Shown: positions 4,301-61,082 of the stretch, piece by piece | Position numbering within the stretch: position 1 is the stretch's first letter | How the letters are laid out: the number at the start of each line of letters is the position of its first letter | DNA from: Lepidurus packardi | Taxonomy: Eukaryota; Arthropoda; Branchiopoda; Notostraca; Triopsidae | Assembly (NCBI GenBank): GCA_023053545.1 | Contig: JAKZAN010000006.1 | Span: 8,650,351-8,714,350 of the forward strand | Direction of reading: 5' to 3' | DNA length: 64,000 nt | The notes under the pieces: model-generated | The model's input: only the letters and a program-made list of their open reading frames with translations | What the model was told of the DNA's origin: nothing | Databases searched by the model: none | Made by a program: the position numbers and the translations under genes

Positions 4301-5632
4301 CTCCATTACATGTCTACCGTAACCCGGGACGAAGCAGCTTATTTAATTTGTAAGTACGCTCTCCTGTAAGAAACATTTCGTATAAACTAAGCTTTCAATT
4401 TCTTTTAGATAACAATAAGACACTATTGCCCAATTTTGAAGTCAGTCAACAGTTTTTTGATCAAAAAATCCGCGAGTTTGTCCACCGATACAACTACACG
4501 TTAAACCCAGAAGGTGTGTATCAAGCAATCAAGTACATGTACACGTATTGGCCAGATCCTACGAACACAACGCATATTCGAGAGCAATATATCAACGTAA
4601 ATATATCTATATCTCATTGGCTTGACAACCTTTTTTTGGTAACCGTTTTTTTTTATAGTTCATGTCCGACTTCCTTTACAAAAGCCCCCATGACAAAATG
4701 ACCAAGATGATGGTGGATGCAGGCATTCCTACTTATGCGTACGTTCTCAACACCACCATTCGAGCGTTGAATTATCCCTTTTGGACCCAAGTTCCCAACA
4801 ACATCGATTACCATTTCATCACAGGAGGTCCTTTTATGGATCCAGGTAAAGCAGATAGAAAAGAAGGCGAAACAAAATGTAAGAAATAAATTGTAAACTA
4901 TTTTTTCAGATTTTTTTCCGGAGGATATTCGAGTTGAACGGAAACAATGGACTGAAGAGGACCGCAAGATGAGTGAATTCGTGATGACTGCGTTTGCTAA
5001 ATTTGCCAAATTTGGACGCCCTACACCTGTAGCCATTTATAAGATTAACTGGCAAGAAATGAGACCGGGCGATTTACGTTACTTAAACTTAAATAACACG
5101 GACAACTCGACGATGATGTGGAACTACAGGCAACAAGAATGTGCGTTTTGGTCCGAATACATGCCCACAGTTGTTGGCTATATGGTCCCCACCTATCGAC
5201 CCACTGTCGAGGTACCAAGACCAATCATGCTTAATCAATGCTTGCTTAATCATGTTGTAGTGTAGCATCCAAACTAAAAGGTAATCTTGTACAACAGTAT
5301 TGGTGGGAACCTTCGACGCCAGTGAGTGTAGCGTTTTGGTCTATATCCGGAGTTTGCCTTTTGCTTTTGATGCTAGCTATTCTGTGCTGCTGCATGTGGA
5401 GAGGCGCCAAAAAGTATGCCCAATCTTTTAATTCCAGTTATTTCGTTTCTAATGTTTTTTTCCTAGGTCGAATCGAAAATTGCTGGCCGAGAATTACTTG
5501 AGCGAAGGATTTGCAGCTGAAAATCACCACGCGAAAGAGCTTGATAAGTTCAAACCTCACAAAAACCAGAAACAATATACCCCCGAGAAGCTAAAATTAA
5601 GTAATAATGACGTTTCTTCAACGACAGTTTAA
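1370..5632 (+). CDS. Gli: Gliotactin-like cholinesterase-domain adhesion protein
   Basis: Coding exons: 1370-2392, 3195-3341, 3435-3584, 3653-3865, 3923-4090, 4148-4349, 4409-4596, 4659-4845, 4910-5211, 5298-5413, 5467-5632 (953 residues). Gliotactin is a type I membrane protein of tricellular septate junctions. Seen here: a signal peptide (residues 1-22), a Ser/Asp/Arg/Asn-rich stretch (about 24-250), a cholinesterase-like ectodomain starting at CGIWDEW, one transmembrane helix (about 868-893), a short cytoplasmic tail and a C-terminal STTV that fits a class I PDZ ligand. The nucleophile elbow reads GTGSG where active esterases have GESAG, so the catalytic serine position (about residue 486) is glycine and the domain should be non-enzymatic. 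The length is close to fly gliotactin. A neuroligin is the main alternative; the N-terminal extension, tail and overall match favour gliotactin. The first intron (802 bp) is the longest. Confidence 0.88.
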
Positions 5633-19215: not shown

Positions 19216-22200
19216 CTATGGACTAGGTTTTTTCTCAGCAGTGGTTGGAGCAGTACTTTCCATCAAATACTTCTTAATTAACTCGGCTACTTCGTCGTGA
19301 CCAAATCTCTTAGCGTCATCATAGGGAGTTTGCTCCCACCTAAGTAAAAAAAACGTACATTACTAAGTTAAGGGTGTTTAGATAAAACCGCATTTACCTA
19401 TCTGTAGGATTGGGTGGTACATGGCAATGCTTCAGCAGGAATTCGACGCATTCATAGTGGCCTTCAGCAGATGCTAAATGTAATGCTGTGCGATCATCGT
19501 AATCCCTTTGTGTCATATCCATCCCGGACAATTTGTACCTAATCAGGAATTTGACAATTTGTTACTTTTAGGGACATGTGTTCTCTGTGAATAGTCAAGC
19601 TTTACCTTCTCATGGCCGTGACATCGCCAGAAGCTGCAGAGAACAGAAGACTCACGATGTTCAAACCTTTGGTCTCGTACTTGTGTCTCCGTGGATCTTG
19701 CTTGTTAATCGCATGTTTGAGATTGTCATAACGATGGAAATTGAACCGCGATACCAATTGCTGTTTATCAAGCAGTAACAGATAGATCGTAAGATTCTTT
19801 ATAAACGAGGGTGGAATTTGTATGGTTACTTTGCAAAACTCGATGCCCCGGACAGAGTTACCAAGCGCGTCTAATGGAGGAGACCAGACTGCCATACCGA
19901 GTACGTTCGGTACGACAACCAGCATGCATCCGCAAACACCTGACTTGGCAGGCAGCCCAACCTAGAACCAAAAGTCAAATCTCAAAATCTGCTTACATGG
20001 TTATGTGAATTTATGGACAATTGTATTGCGCAATTAATCTAATTTTACCTGGAAAGCAAACTGTCCAGAATAATCATACATTCCGCAGCTATGCATGAGA
20101 GACAGAACGTCGCGTACGGAATCAGGCTTCAGGACTTTATCTCCGGTCGTGGGACATATTCCTCCATTAGCCAAAGTCGCTGCAATCACTGACATACTGT
20201 CACAATCCGCTTCCATAGAGCAGCACTACAAAGTTAAACGAAGTAAGCGATTCTGACTAGGATAAAAGCAAACTTTAGTTTATGGGCAAGCTTACTTGGA
20301 AATAAAAGTCGAGACACTCCCGTAAATTGATCTTCTCTGGAAAGCACTTGTTTTCGCGCATGTAAAAGGCTAGTGCGTAGTTCCGATCAGCGTTCTCACG
20401 CTCGGAAAGGAATACGGCGTTGTTGAATCCTATAAACTCCCCACCAGACATTCTCTGTTCGCAGACAAAAATTAAAAGGGTTGACTAAACTTGCTTTTAA
20501 TCCTTTTCGAAAGCAGACATCCATGCATATGTAAAAGGAGTAAAACAAATAAAAGGGGGGATACGCGTAGTACACTAAAAATTCTCGCATGCAAAGCTCT
20601 AATCACCGACTAGTTGCCCTCTTTGCGCCCAAAATGTATGAGCTATAATACCATAAGAAAAGATTAACGGCCACCACCGCCCCTCAATGTGCTCGATCGA
20701 GACTTTGGACGTGACAAGCATGCATGATAGAAAATGTTACCTCGTATCTGTTTTTAACATAATCGAACTTTTCCGCTAGAGACATATGTCGTTCTATGAG
20801 TTTGAGGACCAAACTGGTGACGACGATGGCTCCCGCATTGATCAAAGGATTATGGGGTTGAGCTATTTAACGGAACACAAAACCAAGCGAAGACATTAAA
20901 TCAAATAGTCACGAAGCGGAGCAAAAAATCAAAACTATAGTTAGCAGCATGCTCACGGAAGACGGATTTTAGCGCGTAACAGGAGCGTGCAGAAACACGA
21001 GGATTTTGTGCAAGAAAAAGGCTCCGAATAGGGAACAAGGAATGTTAAAGAATTAACCTTAAAATAGCTGAGGATATAATCGAACTTTTCTGCCAGACTC
21101 ATGTCGGGGTCTACGAGGTTGGTGAGCAAGCTGAGAACGACGATAGCTCCCGCGTTCACCATCGGATTATGAGGCTTTTCTATTAGGACACACAATAAGC
21201 TTTGGTTAGTCTAAAAGATCTAAATCATAAAATTCCATCACCCAATCTGTGAAATTCAATAAACTGATCTACACTGCGTTTCTAAGTCTCTCTTGCCCTA
21301 TTGATTATGATATCTCTAAAGCTTTTTATTTCACATTAACTCCAACCTTTGCAAAATCGACTCACTAGTATCACTCTCGGGAAACCAGAGACTTCCTCTG
21401 AAATTAAAGACAAAAAGTTATAATAAACATTACTTACTATTGTAATCCAATACAAGCTCGTTAAACATGCGCCCACTCGGTTCTTGGCCAACATACTGAT
21501 GAACCTCTTCTGATCCTAGTTCATTAAGGGCAATGGCGTACGTCAGAGGTTTGCTATACATACGAAAGCATTTCTCTCATTAGTCAATTTTGGGCCCTCG
21601 AGCTCCGAAGAAATAAGGGTATTATATGCTAGAAAAATTTCTTCACCTGCAGGACTGAATAGTGAAAGGGACTTTGACGTCACCGAAGGAAAACCGTTGT
21701 CCATCAATGGTGCACAAACTCACTCCCCAGTAATTCGGATTCATGCGTTCCAACTGCGGGATATAAGAAGCGACTTTGCCTGTCTCGTTTGTTTTGCATT
21801 TCCAGTAGATTTCCTCAATGTGTTTGCAGAAGGCTTCAAACTCGGGAATCACGAATTGGTGCCTGAAGGCCCGGGAAATCAATACAATATTCTCGTTCAC
21901 CGCTCTGTGAAATCAAATACGGTTAGTAGATAATAAAAAATGAACCTCTTTGCAGCCCTCCATTTTGGCTCTCGATGAAATTACTTTTTGAATTGTTCCC
22001 GGTTTAACCGCAAATTCTCAAGGTTGGCTGGTCCGTCACGACCCATTTCTTGTTGCACTTTTTGCAAATTTGCGGTCAACTCGCTAAGTCGAGGATCTGT
22101 GTGACGCAAGCCGGTGGCCCATAACGCCTATATTATATCGTTTCTTTTAGTTCAAGGTGTTTTCTCTCGCCCCACCAAAAATAAAAGCAGATAGCTTTTT

Positions 22201-22912
22201 TTATTTTTATGGACTGAATTTCGCAAATAAGCTGTTTAAACAGCTGTCATGATGTAGTTTGATTAACAAGAGTTACGAATTCTTTATTAACTTACGGGAA
22301 GGAAGGTGCCCATATGGATGTTATCAGTATCTTCGGTTTTGAAAATGTCAAACAGTACATCTTCCACGCTGATGAGGGGTTCCTTATCGCTACTGAAAAG
22401 AAAGTGGATATACAAGAGACTTTACGAGCTGCAGTCAACCAAAAAAGTAGGCGAGAAAAGTTTATGGGAGAAAGAAATCCAATGGCAGACAGTGCGGGAA
22501 CGTAATGTTCAGCGGAGGGTGTCCGATTGGATCAATATACCCCATCAAGCAACGTATTTTATCTCTATTTCACTTTTAGCACGGTCTGGACAAAGGTCAG
22601 AAACAAATAAAGAAAAATGGCAGAATTTGTTCACCTGTAGTCAAGGAAGCTTAGGTTGAACCATGAGGATGACTGGCGGTTCAAAGAAGGTTTGGGATTC
22701 GACGCCCCAGTGCTAGAGGCAGACCTGCTAGGACTGTCAGAAGTTTTGGAAGGACCTGACGCCTCACTTTTTTGATCTTCGAAACTAACGCCCATTTTTT
22801 TACTATCTTTACTTAGGGGATCCAATTCAAAAGTGACGACGTTGCGTTTGTCTTCAGCAGGCAAAGCACCGCCAAACTCGTGGTCAAACCAAAAACCTTC
22901 CAGCGTTACAAA
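19216..22912 (-). CDS. GLS: Glutaminase, kidney/GAC type with ankyrin repeats (5' end unresolved)
   Basis: This enzyme hydrolyses glutamine to glutamate and ammonia, normally in mitochondria. Exons in transcript order: 22635-22912, 22296-22392, 21985-22127, 21647-21904, 21438-21553, then either 21058-21179 or 20741-20862, then 20296-20454, 20049-20225, 19830-19961, 19606-19760, 19398-19538, 19216-19339. From the first resolved exon this gives 633 residues. Family landmarks seen: an EF-hand-like N-terminal region ([15 protein letters not shown]), the catalytic SxxK motif in [13 protein letters not shown], substrate-binding [52 protein letters not shown] and [16 protein letters not shown], then ankyrin repeats ([12 protein letters not shown]). 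Reading from 22912 is open but has no early ATG, so an upstream exon with the targeting peptide is missing. The alternative sixth-position exons are described separately. Confidence 0.93.
20741..20862 (-). other. GLS: Glutaminase alternative exon 7b
   Basis: Also 122 nt, with the same phases as 7a, lying 195 bp downstream in transcript order. It encodes [14 protein letters not shown] plus [20 protein letters not shown] and has a stronger donor (GTAACA). Because 122 is not divisible by three, including both exons or neither would shift the frame, so the two must be used alternatively. Confidence 0.9.
21058..21179 (-). other. GLS: Glutaminase alternative exon 7a
   Basis: This 122-nt exon enters in phase 1 and leaves in phase 0. 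It encodes [14 protein letters not shown] plus [19 protein letters not shown]. It matches the canonical vertebrate sequence better at [10 protein letters not shown]. Its donor (GTTAAT) is weak. It aligns end to end with exon 7b. Confidence 0.9.
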
Positions 22913-25900
22913 CTAGGTAACAAAATCGGCTAATGTCCGTGAGAAAACACGATAACGAACGATTTTCTAGTGCAGTGTTAACCGTAGAAGAACTGAATAC
23001 CTAATGGAAGCAAGTCTCCGGAGACGTAAGACGAATGTGGGTGTCCCTTTCTATATAATAAGCCAAAAATGGCCCAACAAGAAATTTTGGTCTGGTAAAG
23101 CAGCGCATGTGCATTCCAAAGAAGAAGCTAAAGCCGTAACAGTGAAGCGAACGTGGTAAGCGGAGATTCGCTAAAAGCACCCACGTCGATCTCCGCATTG
23201 ATTTTAGATGAAAAAGATCTATCTATCCATCTATGTTTCTATTTCTAGGGAATTTCTTTACGTTGGCTGGTATTTTTTAATACAGGTTAGGCTTTTGTCC
23301 TTTCAGTGGAAATGGTAATTTTCTTCAACCAATCAGACAACATACATATTTTGTGAAGTATCGAATATTATGCGCGATTTGTATTCTTGCATTAAAATTG
23401 TAGCTAAAATAAGCTGTTAATCCGGCGATCGTTAAGAAGTTAATCGTAAGCGAAGTCGTCACTGTCCAATGGGTGGCTTCTGTTCACCCCCCAAATTGAT
23501 TCAACAACAGTTAGGTGTATCTCAATGACGCCCAAAAAGGGATCAATGATGTCGACTTGATGCTCTTGCCAAGTTAAACCGACGATCAATACCTTTCGGC
23601 GTTGAGATGGGATCTGTGATGCTAAATGTGCGTCACAGGCATTTTCATGTCTGCCTAGGTTTTCCCCAATCTCAAAAGGAGGAAAGCCTCTAAACCCTAC
23701 TATATTCAAGGAATTTCTCTTACACTTCAGTTCGTTGGAATTCCTCCACTGGGCTGAAGATGTTCGTTGCTTGTCTCTGGCGCCAGGACTGGTCGAAACT
23801 CTAAAAGAATATAACGCTTCATTAATATGCTATTTCGCATCTAAGTATGTAGAAGCCGATTTACATAAATAAAGCCAAGCTTTATTATTCTTAGGTTAAG
23901 TTCGCTCCTGCCTCTTCAGGGTAAGCATAGTACAGTACATGTACCTTGTAGGGTTATACACGTACGATTTAACTGGCATAGCGCCAGTTTCGTTTAAATT
24001 ATGCGGCAAGGTCGGGCAGATTTTGAGACTTTGCTGAAGTCATGGATTGCATTATAAAGTTTAGTTTTTACATCAGCAAGCTAGCGCAATATGATAAGGA
24101 GTATCCGAACCATATTGAAAGTGAGTTAAAGAAGGAGCGGAAACGAGAAACCACGTGTTTTATCCTGCAATCCTTGGCTGCGGGGATGACGTCATCGTAC
24201 GTAAGGCAAACGTCGGGAGGTTAATATTAGCGTTAAAGACAAAGATATACATCGTGGGACAAAGAAGTATGTGGTGGTCGTGTAAAACGTACTTGAGTAG
24301 GTGAGAAATAATGTCGTTTATTCGAATTCCATCGCTTCTGGTTTGTGTTCACACTGATACGAGTTCTGTGACGCGGCCGTTGGGAAATGCATGTATTGTG
24401 GCCATTTGTGCTGGTTAATGCAAAACATCTGGCTAACACTTCCACTTCTTGCGCCACACAAATGCGAGTGCTGCTAAGCCACCACATTCTCCTTTTGCTA
24501 TTAGACAACAGAACAATTACAAGTCCTTGCCCTGATTCCGTTGCAAACGCACGGGAGTAGGAGTGCAATGTCGGGCCTGGTACCCCCTAACGAACGTTTT
24601 TCCTTATGGGGTTCTTACTACACTATTACTTGAGATACACTTCTGTTTTATAGTTAAAAGCAAAGAAAAGGCGTTCTTGGACGGCCAACACAGAGCGATG
24701 TGGAACGAGAGCGTGCTAATGAAGTACTAATCTGGGTCTTGAGTATATCTCGTAGCTCAACGGCTAAACACCAAACGGCCAAAAGGAACTAAATTGCCAA
24801 GGACAAGGGTACGTTATACAGAGGACGAGATCACACAGCGATCTAAAATAGACTGACGGAACAACCGTGTTTGTTCGAGACAAGACTACCTCTTACCTGA
24901 CTGGACCTCCCATTAAAAGTTGGCGTTTTTTTTTCTACTTCTCGACACGCAACATGCAACTGCGGTCTATACCGCATACATAATGCAAGTGATGACTTAA
25001 GGTAAGGTCCTTGTCGATACATGTTCAACCCTAGAAACCAGGTTCAACGTCTTACATCCTAGGAGCTCACCAATTTTAATCATAACAATACACCTCTTAC
25101 TCAAAACAAGAATGACCCATAAAGAAAATTTCCAACACAATAATTAACAAACTAGTCAATTTTGGAAGACAGGATATACTAAAGACATTTTTAGCCTTTA
25201 CATACGCATTGTGTTGCTAGGAGAAAGGTCATAAGTTTCCGTGCATGCGAGACACGTGCTGTAAACAACACCATAAAAAGCCTACATGTGTCATGAATTA
25301 AGCTAATAGATTGTTGTCATCTTGAGTAGCCATCTCAGTTCTTTCCGAAGCACATAATTTCAAAAGTCAGGCCCCTCTTGGCCCTCAACACACCCACAAA
25401 ATACGCATGACCTATGAAGAGAAAACAGGAAAACAAGCAAAAAAAAAATTAAAAAATAACCTTCAAATCTCAAATACGTGTCTGGCCTCTTTGGACTGCT
25501 AAAACGCCTACAATAAAAGCATCTATGATAAGGAAATAAGGGGGAAAAAATAGACAAAAAACTTTCACGTAAACTTCAACGTCCAGAAGACGGTGAAGTG
25601 TAAGCTTCGAATAATAAAAAACCAGGCTTATCTTATTTTTTCCGTGTGAACGGGTTTGTACAACTAAATATGTTGAGTATTTTTCAAACAAAAACTACAA
25701 CAATGTCCGGTCAGCAGGTTAACCCATTCAAAAGTTCGACGGTTGGTTCGAACCCTATTTTTTTTGTGGTACAAGGAAGAAACAAAAGGCCCGAGTTTAC
25801 AATGCTTAGCTATAAGTGCAAGGAATGTGACACCACTATCTTTTTGCTTTAGTCCAGGAAAGTTACTCCAAAACTCTTGGCATTTTCATAATTTGCTAAG

Positions 25901-26298: not shown

Positions 26299-30259
<3,961 letters not shown>

Positions 30260-33282: not shown

Positions 33283-34527
33283 ATGAAGATGAATGGCGGC
33301 AAGATTAACGGTGAAATTGTGGCCATTACTCCAGAAGTGGCCACATTAAGAAAACTCATTTGTGACGTGCATTCCGTATTGAAACCCATTGTAATACGAA
33401 CTCTCCGGTCCACCCAATTACCAGGTAGAAGTATTTGGTTTCTTTGAGCGACTAATTAATTTGTGTTAGTAGAATCTTGGCAGGGACCAGCTGAACTTAT
33501 CAGCGTTACCTCTACTTGCCCGACATATGAAGTCGACAAAATGCCTAGTGGGGATTGCTTCTCTTTCAGCATCCCATATTCGAATACTTCGTTGAAAGTA
33601 GATGTGCTTCTATGCGCACGTTCGTTGAATCAGTTACCTGATATTATCTCCGAGGACGAAAGGTTTTTCGAGGGCGATAGAGGCAGCTTTGTTAACATTA
33701 AGAAATATTTACCAGCCTTGTGTGATTGGAACCCAACTAATAGTGAGTCCCTCGCTAGCATTCTTGAGCAACTTGTGATCTGGTATCAGAAAATCCAAGT
33801 TACGTTGCTGCCGAGCACAACAAGAATGAAAATGGAATATGAAACATTAGTTGACACATTGGACAGTTCGCGTGATTCTATCCAAGTTTTCTGCGCCAGA
33901 AAAATTGACGAGGACTCTTGTATATCAGTACGATTTGATGTTAACGTGCCTTTAGTTATGGGGTGTGAGGATGTGAATACCCGATTTTACGTACTATTCA
34001 AATTTCTCTCATTTGATAAGTTAGGTGATGTTACTATCAAAATGCCCGCATTTATTTCGACCCTTTTTGACCAGCACCTGGAGGATCTTATCCCGTCCTA
34101 TGAGCCTACCACTTTATGTGTTGATATATTTTTTTCTGTAAAAGAAGGCTTACAGAAGCAACTCGATGGTATAGCTGCGGAACTTCGAAGAAATCGGGAA
34201 GTTTTATGCACTGTCACAGCAAGCAGTGAAGTTTTACAGACGGATAAACCTCTTTTTCAAAGTATTAAGTTCAGTTACCTATTTGGGAGTCAGCACTACG
34301 TAGTTAAATTGCAGCTGCCTTTCGGAAAGCATACCGCCCATTTGTCTTATAAGGTTTTTTCCTTCTCTAAAGGGGAAATAATGTCTCATGCAGAAAATGG
34401 CTCATTAAGCAATAGTCAAATTTCTGAAAGGGATGCCCTTTTTGTTTCGTTTAATATTTCGGAAAATATGAAAGCCAGCGAGATCTGGAGAAAAGTCGTA
34501 TCTATCTTGCATACACATAAAGTTTAG
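33283..34527 (+). CDS. BABAM2: BRISC and BRCA1-A complex member 2 (BRE)
   Basis: Two coding exons: 33283-33424 and 33470-34527, joined over a 45-bp intron (399 residues). BABAM2 is the scaffold subunit, with ubiquitin-E2-variant folds, of the Lys63-specific deubiquitinase complexes BRISC and, in vertebrates, BRCA1-A. It pairs with BRCC36 and related subunits. Family matches seen: ITPEVATLRKLICDVHS near the start, a CFSFSIPYSNTSLKVDVLLCA segment aligning with the human IPYAGETLKWDIIF region, the LCDWNPTNSESLASIL motif, and KMEYETL. ATG 33283 opens the frame; a second in-frame ATG follows two codons later. Conservation is moderate, so the call rests on ordered motifs and length (human protein about 383 residues). 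Confidence 0.87.
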
Positions 34528-45500: not shown

Positions 45501-47102
45501 AACTTCCGTTATCATGCGCAAGACACTACACTCATTCTTCGAACTTAAGTTTGCGGAATAGAATTCCACCTGAAATGTTCACATGTTTGAGGGTGAGTGT
45601 AGTAGCTAAATATTGATTTAATTTTACAAAGTAAAACTTTGCATGCCCGGAGTCACTCTCACTCATGCAACTCGAATAGGGAGTATGACATCGCAAATTC
45701 ACTGACTTAGTTGGTTGCAAACGAAAAGTACACGCTCGATAACCGAGCTAGCTGGACGACAAGCGTTCTCTAAGTTCCCGTTTCTAAGCCAGGACTTACA
45801 TCGTCACATCTATTGTTTTCCTGAGAAAATATAAAACGCTGCGGAGGGAAGGAACTCAGGGAACCAAAGTAATTACGTAAAGTATCACGAAGGAGGAAAG
45901 AAAGGTTCCATTACGGGGAAAACACTACCCAAAAGCAAACTCTATTAGTCTCTACATGTCTTAGTAAAAACGACACACTTCATTTCAAACTCGGTGCATG
46001 AGAAATGCGAGCGGCTATAAACCTTGCTTTCATTACAAATGTTCGTCTGCCAATGCCTTTCAAGTTATTGTGTACCAACAAATAATGCTGAGGTGCACAA
46101 AAGTTTCACGTTCCCGCTTTGATGCTTGTTAAACAAAGTGGAATTAAATCCTATAAAAAAAAGCGAAGCCAGCTTTGATTTTAATTACTTACCACGCAAT
46201 TCGAAATGAACAGAATACTATTTACCGCCTAATAAGTTGTACGATTATCTATGGGTCTCCCAATTTCATTTCTAAGCTAACATTACAAACCATTCCCAGT
46301 GCGCTTTCCCAGCACACCTTTGTCATGAACTAATATCTCGCCAAAGGCAAAGAACGGAAACTAAATTTGATATGAAACGGTGTCTTCCTTAGCTTGCGGC
46401 AGTGTTTTGGACTACGGAAGTTCATGAACACGAGTGTAAGGAACCGAAGTGAATAGTTAGTTCCGACTTGAAAGACTATTGAAGCTGTGCGATAATAAAC
46501 TCTAATAGCAGACACATATGTAACTGTATGTAACAAAGTAATGGAGTCAAATCCATACCAAATCGCAGGTTTGGGTGCACATTTCGCGTTTTTCCATGGT
46601 GTGATCACAGGGTACGGTAATTACTACGTAAGTCTATGTACCAGTTTGCAAAAAAAAAATTGCCTACGTCGTAAGTTCTACTCGAAACTGGAATGACCGT
46701 GACCTAAGTGTGGACTGAAGCAAACCTATTACTGGCAGACCAGTAACAAATATTGCGACGGCCAAGACTGGATCAATAGGAGCGCTAAGACGCGCGGCGC
46801 CGAACAGGCGCCTTACATCACCCTTCACAATTGAACGATTTTAATTTCAATAAGATGCCTAATAAACGGTTTAAATTATAGCAAAAAGCCCGTGTGAAAG
46901 TCTTCAAGTTTTTTTTAGCAGGGCATAAACCAGTGGATTTAAATGTTACGTATGCTTTAAACGACTCCAGGAACTACGATTTCGTTCGGAAGACTTAAAT
47001 ATTAAAATCGTATAATAAAAAATAAAGAAGAAATTATACCCGTGTTCTGTGCATTGGTAAGGGCGTAGAAACAGCTTTCATTAGAGGTATTTTGGCACTC
47101 AT
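39525..47102 (-). CDS. CCSER-family serine-rich coiled-coil protein
   Basis: Exons in transcript order: 47040-47102, 42687-44197, 40810-40918, 40523-40690, 40219-40464, 40091-40161, 39525-39666 (769 residues). The first 525 residues are Ser/Thr/Pro-rich and disordered-looking, including ERPTPASFGFRRQISIP and an acidic segment ELMLDQGRDGVMLEP. They are followed by two short coiled coils: VQELKAMLLKLRSVLEDAET and LKRQVVFLQEQLEDKNRTVK. These, and the NVATQTE motif after them, match in order what I recall of human CCSER1 (a TLLLKMKRVLQES helix, a second helix and then KSTQTE). CCSER2 is reported at microtubule plus ends; a cytoskeletal role here is inference. The large exon 2 (1511 nt) and the long introns 1 (2842 bp) and 2 (1768 bp) are unlike the compact neighbours. 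The assignment to the family is probable, not certain. Confidence 0.72.
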
Positions 47103-47147
47103 GTTTTCTAGTGCGCCACAATGAGAATGACTGTCCTTCCTAAACAC

Positions 47148-47361
47148 TTCTTCTCCAGGATTTTGGTTCGATAAGCAAGGTCCCATAGACAAAACTGCAA
47201 TTTCATAACACAAAACAACATATTAACATACAAAATTAAGCGTAAAACGAAATTTTCTTCTCCAGGATTTTGGTTCGATAAGCAAGGTCCCATAGACAAA
47301 ACTGCAATTTCATAACACAAAACAACATATTAACATACAAAATTAAGCGTAAAACGAAATT
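47148..47361. repeat. Perfect 107-bp tandem duplication
   Basis: Copies 47148-47254 and 47255-47361 are identical as far as I can read. The duplicated unit begins 46 bp upstream of the CCSER-like start codon, so it doubles 5' UTR or promoter sequence. The identity implies a recent duplication. Confidence 0.9.
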
Positions 47362-47645
47362 ATGATTAAATTACAAGTCCACTTTTTATCTTTATATAAA
47401 TATATTAAATTAACTAAAAAGAAAAAAACTGTTTTCAACTGAAGCAATGGAGTCTAACTTTTTTATCGAAAGTAATAAAAAAAAGTGTTAATAAAAAACT
47501 AAGTACAATTAATACACTAACCTGATAAATAGGAGCAAATCAATCATATTTTGATTCAAGCCATTCGCGTTTACACATAATCATTCGCCTTCTTTTGGTG
47601 TATTGGGTGTAGGTAAACTCTTAGCCGTGAAATGCGAAATGCTTC

Positions 47646-56516: not shown

Positions 56517-57553
56517 CTAAGCTTCTAATTCCAAAGCCAAGCCTAGTTTGTGTCCACCTTGGTTAAAGTTCTTGCCATCAATCAAAGTGGAGAGGGTAAG
56601 GGTGACTCCATCACGCAGTCTTTGTTGGTAACCCAACCCGATGAGTGAAGAGTTGTCTACCTTGGCTCGAACAGAGCTATCGCTGTCCAACTGATACTTG
56701 CAGCCCAACCCAAAGAGAGTGGCGTTGGAGCTCGCAGACCATTCCAAGTTGACACCGGTTTCCAACTTGGGGTTGACTCGTTGGTACAAGGATCCACCAA
56801 ATATTTGACCGTCATTTCTGAAATAACACAAACCCATTACAAACGTCAATTCAGAAAACATGACACGATTTTCGCTTACACGTTAGTATGGATGACAAAG
56901 TCACTCATGGAGTAACCGACGGCGAAGTTGCTGCGAGTGAGCTTAGACTTGGCCGAGTCAAAAGTCATTTGATAGCCAGCCAACCAACCTAGATTAATGG
57001 ACAATCTCGTAAGCCTTTCCGAATATCAATATCGTACTATATACCGTTGTGCCCCACGACAGCAGAGCCACGAATAATGGGTCCGCCCATGTCCAAATCC
57101 ACATCAGCGTTGACGGAAGCGGTGTCGTTCTTAAACTCGGATTTAAGAACACCGGTCTTCTTACTGTTAGAAAGAAAATATTTTTGTGTATTTCTGAGAT
57201 AGAAAAAAAAATAAAAGCGAAGAAATGGCGTACCCGCTTTGAGGAGCAAAAGTGGAATCAAAGGTCAATTTCATGCCTTGTAGAGGCTTATCTTGGACAG
57301 ACACTTCAGTACCCAAGGTATTGTTCGTGTTCCAACGTTCGGTAAGAGTTAAGCCATACTCCTTGACTCGGTATTTGGTCTCGAGGGAGCCCAATACCTT
57401 ACCAGTTTCCAAGTGAGATGATCCGCTAGTGTTGAACTCAACTCCAGTAGAAGTTTTGGTTTTGCAGTCAAGTTTTAACGCACCGAAATGGTAGCCTTTG
57501 CCGAAAACATCGCGGGATTGCTTGCCCAAGTCAGCATACATAGGAGGAGCCAT
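56517..57553 (-). CDS. VDAC: Voltage-dependent anion channel (mitochondrial porin)
   Basis: VDAC is the main metabolite pore of the mitochondrial outer membrane. Coding exons in transcript order: 57234-57553, 57045-57163, 56880-56988, 56517-56817 (282 residues; human VDAC1 is 283). The start [20 protein letters not shown] matches the family's N-terminal helix region. Further landmarks are [42 protein letters not shown] and the C-terminal [18 protein letters not shown] with [20 protein letters not shown]. All 19 strands' worth of sequence appears present. A splice acceptor four bases before the ATG (57557-57558) indicates an intron in the 5' UTR. It is head to head with LARP7. Confidence 0.97.
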
Positions 57554-58251
57554 TATCTACATATAAACCACCTTACTGGATGTATCTTTTTGATTTAAAC
57601 ACAATACTTTACAATAGTATGACATATAAATCATATATAGTAATATTACATTAAACGTGAAAGACTTTGAGGCCTAGTTCTTTTTATCAATTATAAAAAT
57701 AATGTATGCATTAAAAACGATCGCGTGGCGGATGTACAAGAATCGACACAAGCTTTAAGTTTAACGAAAACCCTTTTCTGCAAGCGAACAAGAACTTTTT
57801 CGATATGGCACGTTCAACTCACATTTGGGTGACTATATCTGCTTTTATTTAAACTCTTGTTATGCACTACAGATCATGCGATACTTACAAAGTTAAGGTG
57901 CAGAAGAGACGATCTTTATTCACTTCGAGAACGGTAAAGAAGGAAGAGGGACGTGCCAGTGGGTAAATGACGTCACGCCTGAATTTTCTATGATTCATTC
58001 GTAAGTCGCCATTTACGATGTCGCGACTGCGACGAGGGCTATGAATAAAATGGGGAATATGAAATGGTAAAACGCGAAACGGACCGTGGGCTGTATCGCG
58101 GTCCGTTTTGGCTTTACCATTTCATGTTTCGCATTTCGCGTATTATCCACACCCACCCCGACGACGATATTTTGGCGCGCGACGTAACTACAACGAATAA
58201 AACAGTTTTGGGCACAAACAATAGAGGAAATAGTCAAAACAAACTTTAAAA
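57554..58251. promoter_or_regulatory. Shared (bidirectional) promoter region of VDAC and LARP7
   Basis: The 698 bp between divergent start codons should contain both promoters and the VDAC 5' UTR exon. The striking element is the long hairpin at 58059-58125. The rest is A/T-rich; TGACGTCA-like CRE half-sites occur at about 57967-57973 (TGACGTCAC). Confidence 0.5.
58059..58125. repeat. Long near-perfect hairpin, 27-bp arms
   Basis: Left arm 58059-58086 and right arm 58099-58125 are inverted copies with only a few mismatches. They share ATGAAATGGTAAA and AAACGGACCG around a 12-nt loop. The arms end abruptly, consistent with either a structured regulatory element or a minimal foldback transposon. 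It lies about 130 bp upstream of the LARP7 start codon. Confidence 0.75.
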
Positions 58252-60262: not shown

Positions 60263-61082
60263 TTATCGACCAAAACCTCCACGACCTCGACTAAATCCTC
60301 CTCCACCACCTCCGCGATTAAAACCACCCCCACCGCCTCGGCTAAAGCCGCCACCGCCTCGCCCTCCGCCACCGCCGCCACGGTATCCTCCGCCACCGCC
60401 ACCTCGCCCAAAGGAACCACCCCCTCTTGGTCCTCCTCTTCCTCCTCTACCACCTCTGGCACCTCCCCTTTTCTGGACGCGGCCATCTGCACTTGGTAAA
60501 AATCTTTGCAAAGGAAGCAGTTTGGCAGGGTCAATGTATAGCTTTTGCTCAGCGACGAAAGACTTGGCCTTGACGTCGTCTCCAAGCTTGATTGATACAT
60601 GGTAATCCTTGAGACTGCCAAAAATTTCATCAATTTTGCCGATTTGTTGCTTGTTTTCCAGGAATATTGGCGCGTTAAAATATGGAATATCTTCAATCGT
60701 GCATTTAACGACTAAATCATCTTGGCAGGAATGAAGGAAATATCCCAATTCTTTCACCTACATAAACCGCGTGATTAGAAGGCTTTCAAACATGTCTCTT
60801 ATTTATATTTTACGTGTTCTGGTGGTCCATAATCTTGAAAACCTCTGTTGCCACCTCCAAAACCTCCTCGACCGCCACCACCACCTAGATACGATGAAAA
60901 ATAAATTAGAATATGATAAAAACTGGGATTATGCACACTCTGTATACATAATCTGTGGATTGCTTCCGGCTAAAATAGCCCCGTAAACGGAAGAACTATT
61001 CATTACCTCGTCCACCTCTGCTAAAGCCTCCACCACCACCACGACCTCCAAAGCCGCCTCCACCTCGTCCTCTGAAAGACAT
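60263..61082 (-). CDS. GAR1: H/ACA ribonucleoprotein complex subunit 1 (GAR1)
   Basis: GAR1 is a core protein of H/ACA snoRNPs, which guide RNA pseudouridylation and include telomerase RNP in many animals. Exons in transcript order: 61007-61082, 60814-60884, 60263-60757 (213 residues; human 217). Layout: an N-terminal Arg/Gly-rich domain (residues 1-49), a central core (about 50-140) with [33 protein letters not shown] and [14 protein letters not shown], then a C-terminal Arg/Gly-rich domain ending RGGFGR. Intron 2 is 56 bp and intron 1 is 122 bp; I found no box C/D or H/ACA pattern in them. The stop codon is 86 bp from the LARP7 stop, with the genes convergent. Confidence 0.97.

Follow-up and report, generated by a model that had tools for sequence, protein, structure and literature searches.

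Mutually exclusive exons are already known, also in enzymes, and the glutaminase gene of Lepidurus packardi (Branchiopoda; Notostraca) that we describe here is predicted to be a further case. Glutaminase is a drug target that converts glutamine into glutamate and sets the supply of the latter. The gene lies on the minus strand of a stretch of 64,000 nt (contig JAKZAN010000006.1 of assembly GCA_023053545.1, positions 8,650,351 to 8,714,350; hereafter the window, in whose numbering all coordinates are given), and two adjacent exons of it, 7a (21058-21179) and 7b (20741-20862), encode alternative versions of one active-site segment. In the Mhc and Dscam clusters of arthropods, tandem homologous exons are likewise spliced such that one of them is used per transcript. 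These clusters are larger, however, and Dscam relies on pairing between docking and selector sequences, which is little supported in the glutaminase gene.

Among enzymes, exons 9 and 10 of PKM (PMC12487847) and exons 4a and 4b of OGDH (PMC7969005) are exclusive exons that swap one segment of the protein, as the glutaminase exons are predicted to do. Both concern other enzymes, whereas the glutaminase segment holds the substrate-contacting asparagine together with a filament helix and is predicted from the DNA to be exchanged. Human GLS resembles the present gene in that one glutaminase gene gives rise to isoforms, KGA and GAC, which differ in activity and assembly (PMC10770349), but there a C-terminal tail with or without ankyrin repeats is exchanged, no homologous exons are involved and the catalytic core is left untouched. 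Vertebrates moreover have two glutaminases with different kinetics in one animal, GLS and GLS2 (PMC8130709), which are encoded by separate genes, while a single gene was found here. With only one glutaminase gene found, two exons may here stand in for two genes. An earlier note, made on this DNA from its letters, knew of no description of exclusive exons in glutaminase, and we found none in searches of the open-access literature that linked glutaminase or Gls to terms for splicing or exons. Nor did that literature yield an exclusive-exon case under CG42708, which we take to be the fly glutaminase identifier. The exon pair could already be contained in annotated gene models of other arthropods.

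A single glutaminase gene with two versions of exon 7

The explanation that we consider very likely, as predicted from the DNA, is a single KGA-type gene in which exon 7 was duplicated in tandem long ago and is now spliced in a mutually exclusive manner, so that two full-length enzymes would be made. Exons 7a and 7b are both 122 nt long, are entered in phase 1 and left in phase 0, and have AG and GT borders; these coordinates, lengths and phases, taken from the earlier note, proved exact on the minus strand. The two exons are identical at 81 of 122 nucleotides and, over full codons, at 23 of 40 amino acids, which means that the predicted isoforms would differ at 17 of 40 residues (18 of 41 when the split codon is counted). 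In a tblastn comparison of 7a with the window, 7b was matched with E = 9.5e-14, while the next line had E = 0.061 and fell in another gene; the similarity of the two exons is not due to chance. No third copy of the exon was present among the 20 best tblastn lines in the window. A scan for paired open reading frames (ORFs) in the window (at least 25 aa long, no more than 8 kb apart on one strand, similar by blastp with E <= 1e-4) yielded 7a/7b, seen on both strands, a group of self-similar ORFs near 47 kb and nothing else.

The splice sites of 7a and 7b are ordinary for this gene. Their donors match the consensus at 7/9 and 6/9 positions, respectively (6-8/9 for the other 11 donors), and both acceptors have 11/16 pyrimidines (4-13/16 for the other 11 acceptors). 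With either exon the reading frame stays open for 675 codons. With both, a stop is reached at the seventh codon of 7b, and with neither a stop is reached in exon 8, which bears out the claim that including both or neither breaks the frame. Similar length, same phase, sequence homology and adjacent position, the features by which mutually exclusive exons are recognized, are thus all present, and a further one, that double inclusion or skipping leaves a non-functional transcript, is seen in the reading frame only. On the Drosophila X chromosome such features are shared by 90 of 16,180 non-exclusive exons (0.56%; PMC3228551), and 377 human exclusive clusters (60%) have exons that are not divisible by three (PMC5740500).

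The gene belongs to the animal KGA-type glutaminases. The full-length protein with 7a matched the Pfam glutaminase domain PF04960 over 286/286 positions (380.9 bits), EF-hand_14 with 100.6 bits and Ank_2 with 37.6 bits, and the 7b core on its own matched the glutaminase domain with 121.1 bits. EF-hand_14, glutaminase and ankyrin repeats are the layout of vertebrate KGA. Both isoforms retain the catalytic residues Lys289, Asn335, Glu381, Asn388 and Tyr414 (human numbering throughout), and a serine sits in QSCS, presumably the catalytic serine motif. Searches of the whole source assembly (108.6 Mb, 344 contigs) gave five matches with the glutaminase family, which missed the short exons 7a and 7b, and four with the protein query, which recovered them; all were inside this one gene. 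A second glutaminase gene was not found in the 108.6 Mb by these family and protein searches, which score the best candidates only. A genome-wide query with 7b matched exon 7a at 56%.

The premature stops lie 101 nt (both exons) and 100 nt (neither exon) upstream of the next junction and would therefore normally trigger nonsense-mediated decay (NMD). Transcripts with both exons or with neither would then be lost to NMD or give no enzyme, and the frameshift would act as a backstop to exclusive splicing. That both wrong outcomes place a stop some 100 nt before a junction would also fit a gene in which 7a and 7b are alternatives but splicing does not enforce their exclusivity. Transcripts with both exons or with neither would then be frequent and serve as an NMD-coupled expression switch. 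At 195 nt the intron between the copies (20863-21057) is long enough for splicing in this gene, where 6 of the 8 other introns that were measured span 58-93 nt and the remaining two 168 and 242 nt. The introns on the outer sides of the pair span 258 nt (exon 6 to 7a, 21180-21437) and 286 nt (7b to exon 8, 20455-20740). No exclusion mechanism was detected when RNA pairing, steric hindrance and U2/U12 incompatibility were checked, which is also in line with a switch. We regard a switch of this kind as possible but improbable.

The predicted exchange: from the active site to the filament helix

Alignment to human chains placed exon 7 at residues 327-363. The swap would thus start in the last part of the activation loop (327), pass over the Asn335 motif and reach residue 363, taking in most of helix 351-365. 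The asparagine shared by 7a and 7b, which the earlier note had equated with human Asn335, is indeed that residue (query residue 47, with query residue 1 being chain residue 289 of 8szj/9pia). The note's pairing of the variable stretch after the Asn motif was slightly off: the correct alignment is LTNLVDPD (7a) versus VLKLIERH (7b), and the stretch includes an insertion of 4 aa relative to human GLS. Going by the alignment, exon 7 additionally covers residues 351-363, a helix of the filament interface in the human enzyme, and it is in this helix that 7a and 7b differ in charge, a point that the note had missed. In the human enzyme the activation loop comprises residues 308-334, while helix 351-365 and Phe355 sit in the interface between the tetramers of active filaments (PMC10770349); Phe355 is also named in PMC10912226.

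Phe355 is retained in both exons. After Phe355-Asp-Tyr, 7a continues with ILSYFK, which resembles VMQFLN of human GLS and VLQYLN of GLS2, and 7b continues with the charged VKNRYE. In an alignment of 25 bacterial places from 24 genomes, which had been located and cut out with the 7b query, lysine occurs at position 359 in 1/25 and arginine at position 361 in 1/25 rows, and 7b is therefore unusual there. Since Asn335 itself is unchanged, a functional difference between the isoforms more likely lies in the loop before the filament helix and in the helix itself.

Age and constraint of the exon pair

The duplication appears to be old, and both copies appear to be under constraint. Their flanks can no longer be aligned, with 30/80 positions upstream and 27/80 downstream identical in an ungapped comparison, and the intron between 7a and 7b is without clear homology to the other flanks. 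A search with the 7b isoform found relatives at 28 places, spread over 25 of the 185 bacterial genomes, and 25 of these places entered the alignment. The 4-residue insertion is common to 7a and 7b but missing in human GLS and in all 25 rows of the bacterial alignment, which suggests that the two exons probably descend from one exon that already carried it. Coding constraint on both copies is indicated, for one pair in one genome, by an omega of 0.34 (NG86; dS 0.96, dN 0.33), by N331, P332, N335 and G337, which are invariant in 25/25 bacterial rows and retained in both exons, and by the equal distance of the copies to human GLS (22/37 identical residues for 7a, 21/37 for 7b).

Had one copy become a relic, an exon duplicate that is never or almost never spliced in, its frame could still be open by chance: in 49% of simulations, substitution alone introduced no stop into the 120 nt. 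The observed amino acid identity, however, is above the neutral expectation, and in a neutral, substitution-only simulation it was reached together with the lack of a stop in 0.14% of 20,000 runs. That all four of the positions invariant in bacteria are kept in 7a and in 7b, that the copies are equally distant from human GLS with intact borders on both, and that the flanking introns have decayed beyond recognition while the exons have not, argues against a relic as well. Three points weigh against the favoured explanation nonetheless. At +3 the donor of 7a has a T, which would fit a relic, while A or G is found there in the other 12 donors; the dN/dS value comes from one pair of 40 codons and is averaged over both branches; and 16 of the 25 bacterial rows were nearer to 7a and 3 nearer to 7b, with 6 ties, even though 7b had served as query. 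On balance we consider it quite unlikely that one copy is a relic.

How the choice between 7a and 7b might be made

One candidate for a mechanism that would select one of the exons is a competition between intronic RNA pairings, with a docking site and selectors, for which the earlier note had pointed to the flanking introns. Little or no support for such pairings was obtained in this one genome. The duplex between intron 7 and exon 7a beat 100/100 shuffles, but it was one of nine segment pairs tested and the only one to stand out. Intron 7 alone folded with a z of -2.3, while exon 7a and intron 7 as one strand gave a z of -0.6; pairing of intron 7 with intron 8 was matched by 8/100 shuffles, pairing of intron 6 with intron 7 was weaker than in 90/100 and that of intron 6 with intron 8 weaker than in 98/100. 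The whole region of 983 nt was less stable than 15/15 shuffles. We consider docking and selector pairing very improbable as the cause of exclusivity. Steric exclusion, in which the branch point of 7b would be so close to the 7a donor that the middle intron could not be spliced out, is likewise very improbable. A CTAAC is seen by eye about 80 nt upstream of exon 7b, but some 116 nt separate it from the 7a donor, more than the <50 nt that PMC5740500 takes as criterion, and introns of only 58 nt occur in the gene. Incompatibility of U2 and U12 sites was not favoured either, all sites being GT-AG with no U12-like donor by eye.

With little support for RNA pairing and a middle intron longer than steric exclusion would allow, a choice made in trans is what remains. 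Mutually exclusive splicing of 7a and 7b would then probably be achieved by regulated exon definition via trans-acting factors.

A possible link between exon choice and glutaminase filaments

The swap would probably result in two active enzymes with different kinetics or different higher-order assembly, with a vertebrate-like helix in the 7a isoform and a more charged one in the 7b isoform. A more specific version is that exon choice sets the polymer state of the enzyme: 7a would keep the vertebrate-like filament helix, while 7b, with K359, R361 and E363, would weaken or re-specify the stacking of tetramers and shift activity. We hold this version to be doubtful, although F355, F373, N375, F378, D412 and Q416 are retained. 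If it is true, splicing of one arthropod gene would play the part that GLS/GLS2 and KGA/GAC play in vertebrates.

Several features of the protein speak against it. The enzyme carries ankyrin repeats, which weakens the link to filaments, as such repeats are said to keep the loop from making the changes that catalysis and filaments require (PMC10912226). Ankyrin repeats are nevertheless part of the GLS2 filament in that paper too, where they were not built as they are flexible. In addition, human R317 is replaced by M, K320 by E and Q379 by L. R317 and K320 bind phosphate in human GAC (PMC10770349), and because they are replaced by Met and Glu the enzyme may be phosphate-independent; human K320A was reported to be constitutively active (PMC10912226). 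The Met and Glu at these two positions lie in the constitutive exon 6 (21438-21553).

The complete gene model and further observations

The gene model comprises 13 exons. Exon 1 (24897-25022) holds the proposed start codon and is based on an ORF and a GT only, which makes the N-terminus the least certain part of the model; judged from the exon coordinates, the first intron is about 2 kb long. It is followed by exon 2 (22635-22912), exon 3 (22296-22392), exon 4 (21985-22127), which holds part of the EF-hand_14 match, and exon 5 (21647-21904), which terminates within QSCS. Exon 6 runs from human Lys289 to residue 326 and includes most of the activation loop. Downstream of the exon pair, exon 8 (20296-20454) corresponds to human residues 364-416 and retains Glu381, Asn388, Asp412, Tyr414, Phe373, Asn375, Phe378 and Gln416, with Leu in place of Q379. 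Exons 9 (20049-20225), 10 (19830-19961) and 11 (19606-19760) precede exon 12 (19398-19538), which encodes ankyrin repeats, and exon 13 (19216-19339), which contains the stop codon. Between exons 10 and 11 lies a GT-AG stretch of 69 nt (19761-19829) that is frame-neutral and stop-free. It is taken as another short intron because human GLS is not known to have a counterpart; its retention would lengthen the glutaminase domain by 23 residues, placed after FCK.

Three bacterial glutaminases (L018, L019 and L020) were 49-52% identical to the animal core, compared with 29-42% for the other 25 places, and L019 is the same gene as L014, from a metagenome-assembled genome of the Coxiellaceae. A scan of the viral collection found no relative. 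The scan of the plasmid collection gave 179 records, none of which reached 60% identity; the 40 that were listed carry bacterial names.

Elsewhere in the window, Pfam assigned ORFs to the carboxylesterase family (4897-5265, plus strand), PHTF1/2 (29465-30175, minus), BRE (33460-34524, plus), eukaryotic porin (57167-57556, minus) and Gar1 (60263-60757, minus), while the ORF at 27375-27953 (minus) had no Pfam match. The self-similar ORFs at 47037-47370, found on both strands, are probably a simple tandem array.

Within the assembly, one mitochondrial-like stretch (L009) carries ND2, COX1 and COX2 in this order, which is that of arthropods, when read in the invertebrate mitochondrial code, COX1 having been identified by Pfam and the others by eye. 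An in-frame TGA is present in 37/41 COX1 matches, joined in many of them by TAA or TAG, and the contigs concerned are often large; besides L009, COX1 places occur on contigs C1, C2, C4, C5, C6, C21 and C38. This reads as extensive nuclear mitochondrial insertions, or as mitochondrial DNA assembled into contigs. Three other places, L006 (C52), L007 (C214) and L008 (C43), have long COX1 frames on small contigs that are stop-free in the standard code. As such frames are expected of bacterial cytochrome oxidases, these probably represent associated bacteria in the assembly.

Significance

If the exon pair is used as predicted, Lepidurus packardi would have two natural catalytic cores, alike in all but the stretch that links the substrate asparagine with the filament helix. 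Such a pair would provide a ready-made test of whether polymerization drives catalysis in glutaminase, and would be an instance in which two exons of one gene do what otherwise takes two genes.
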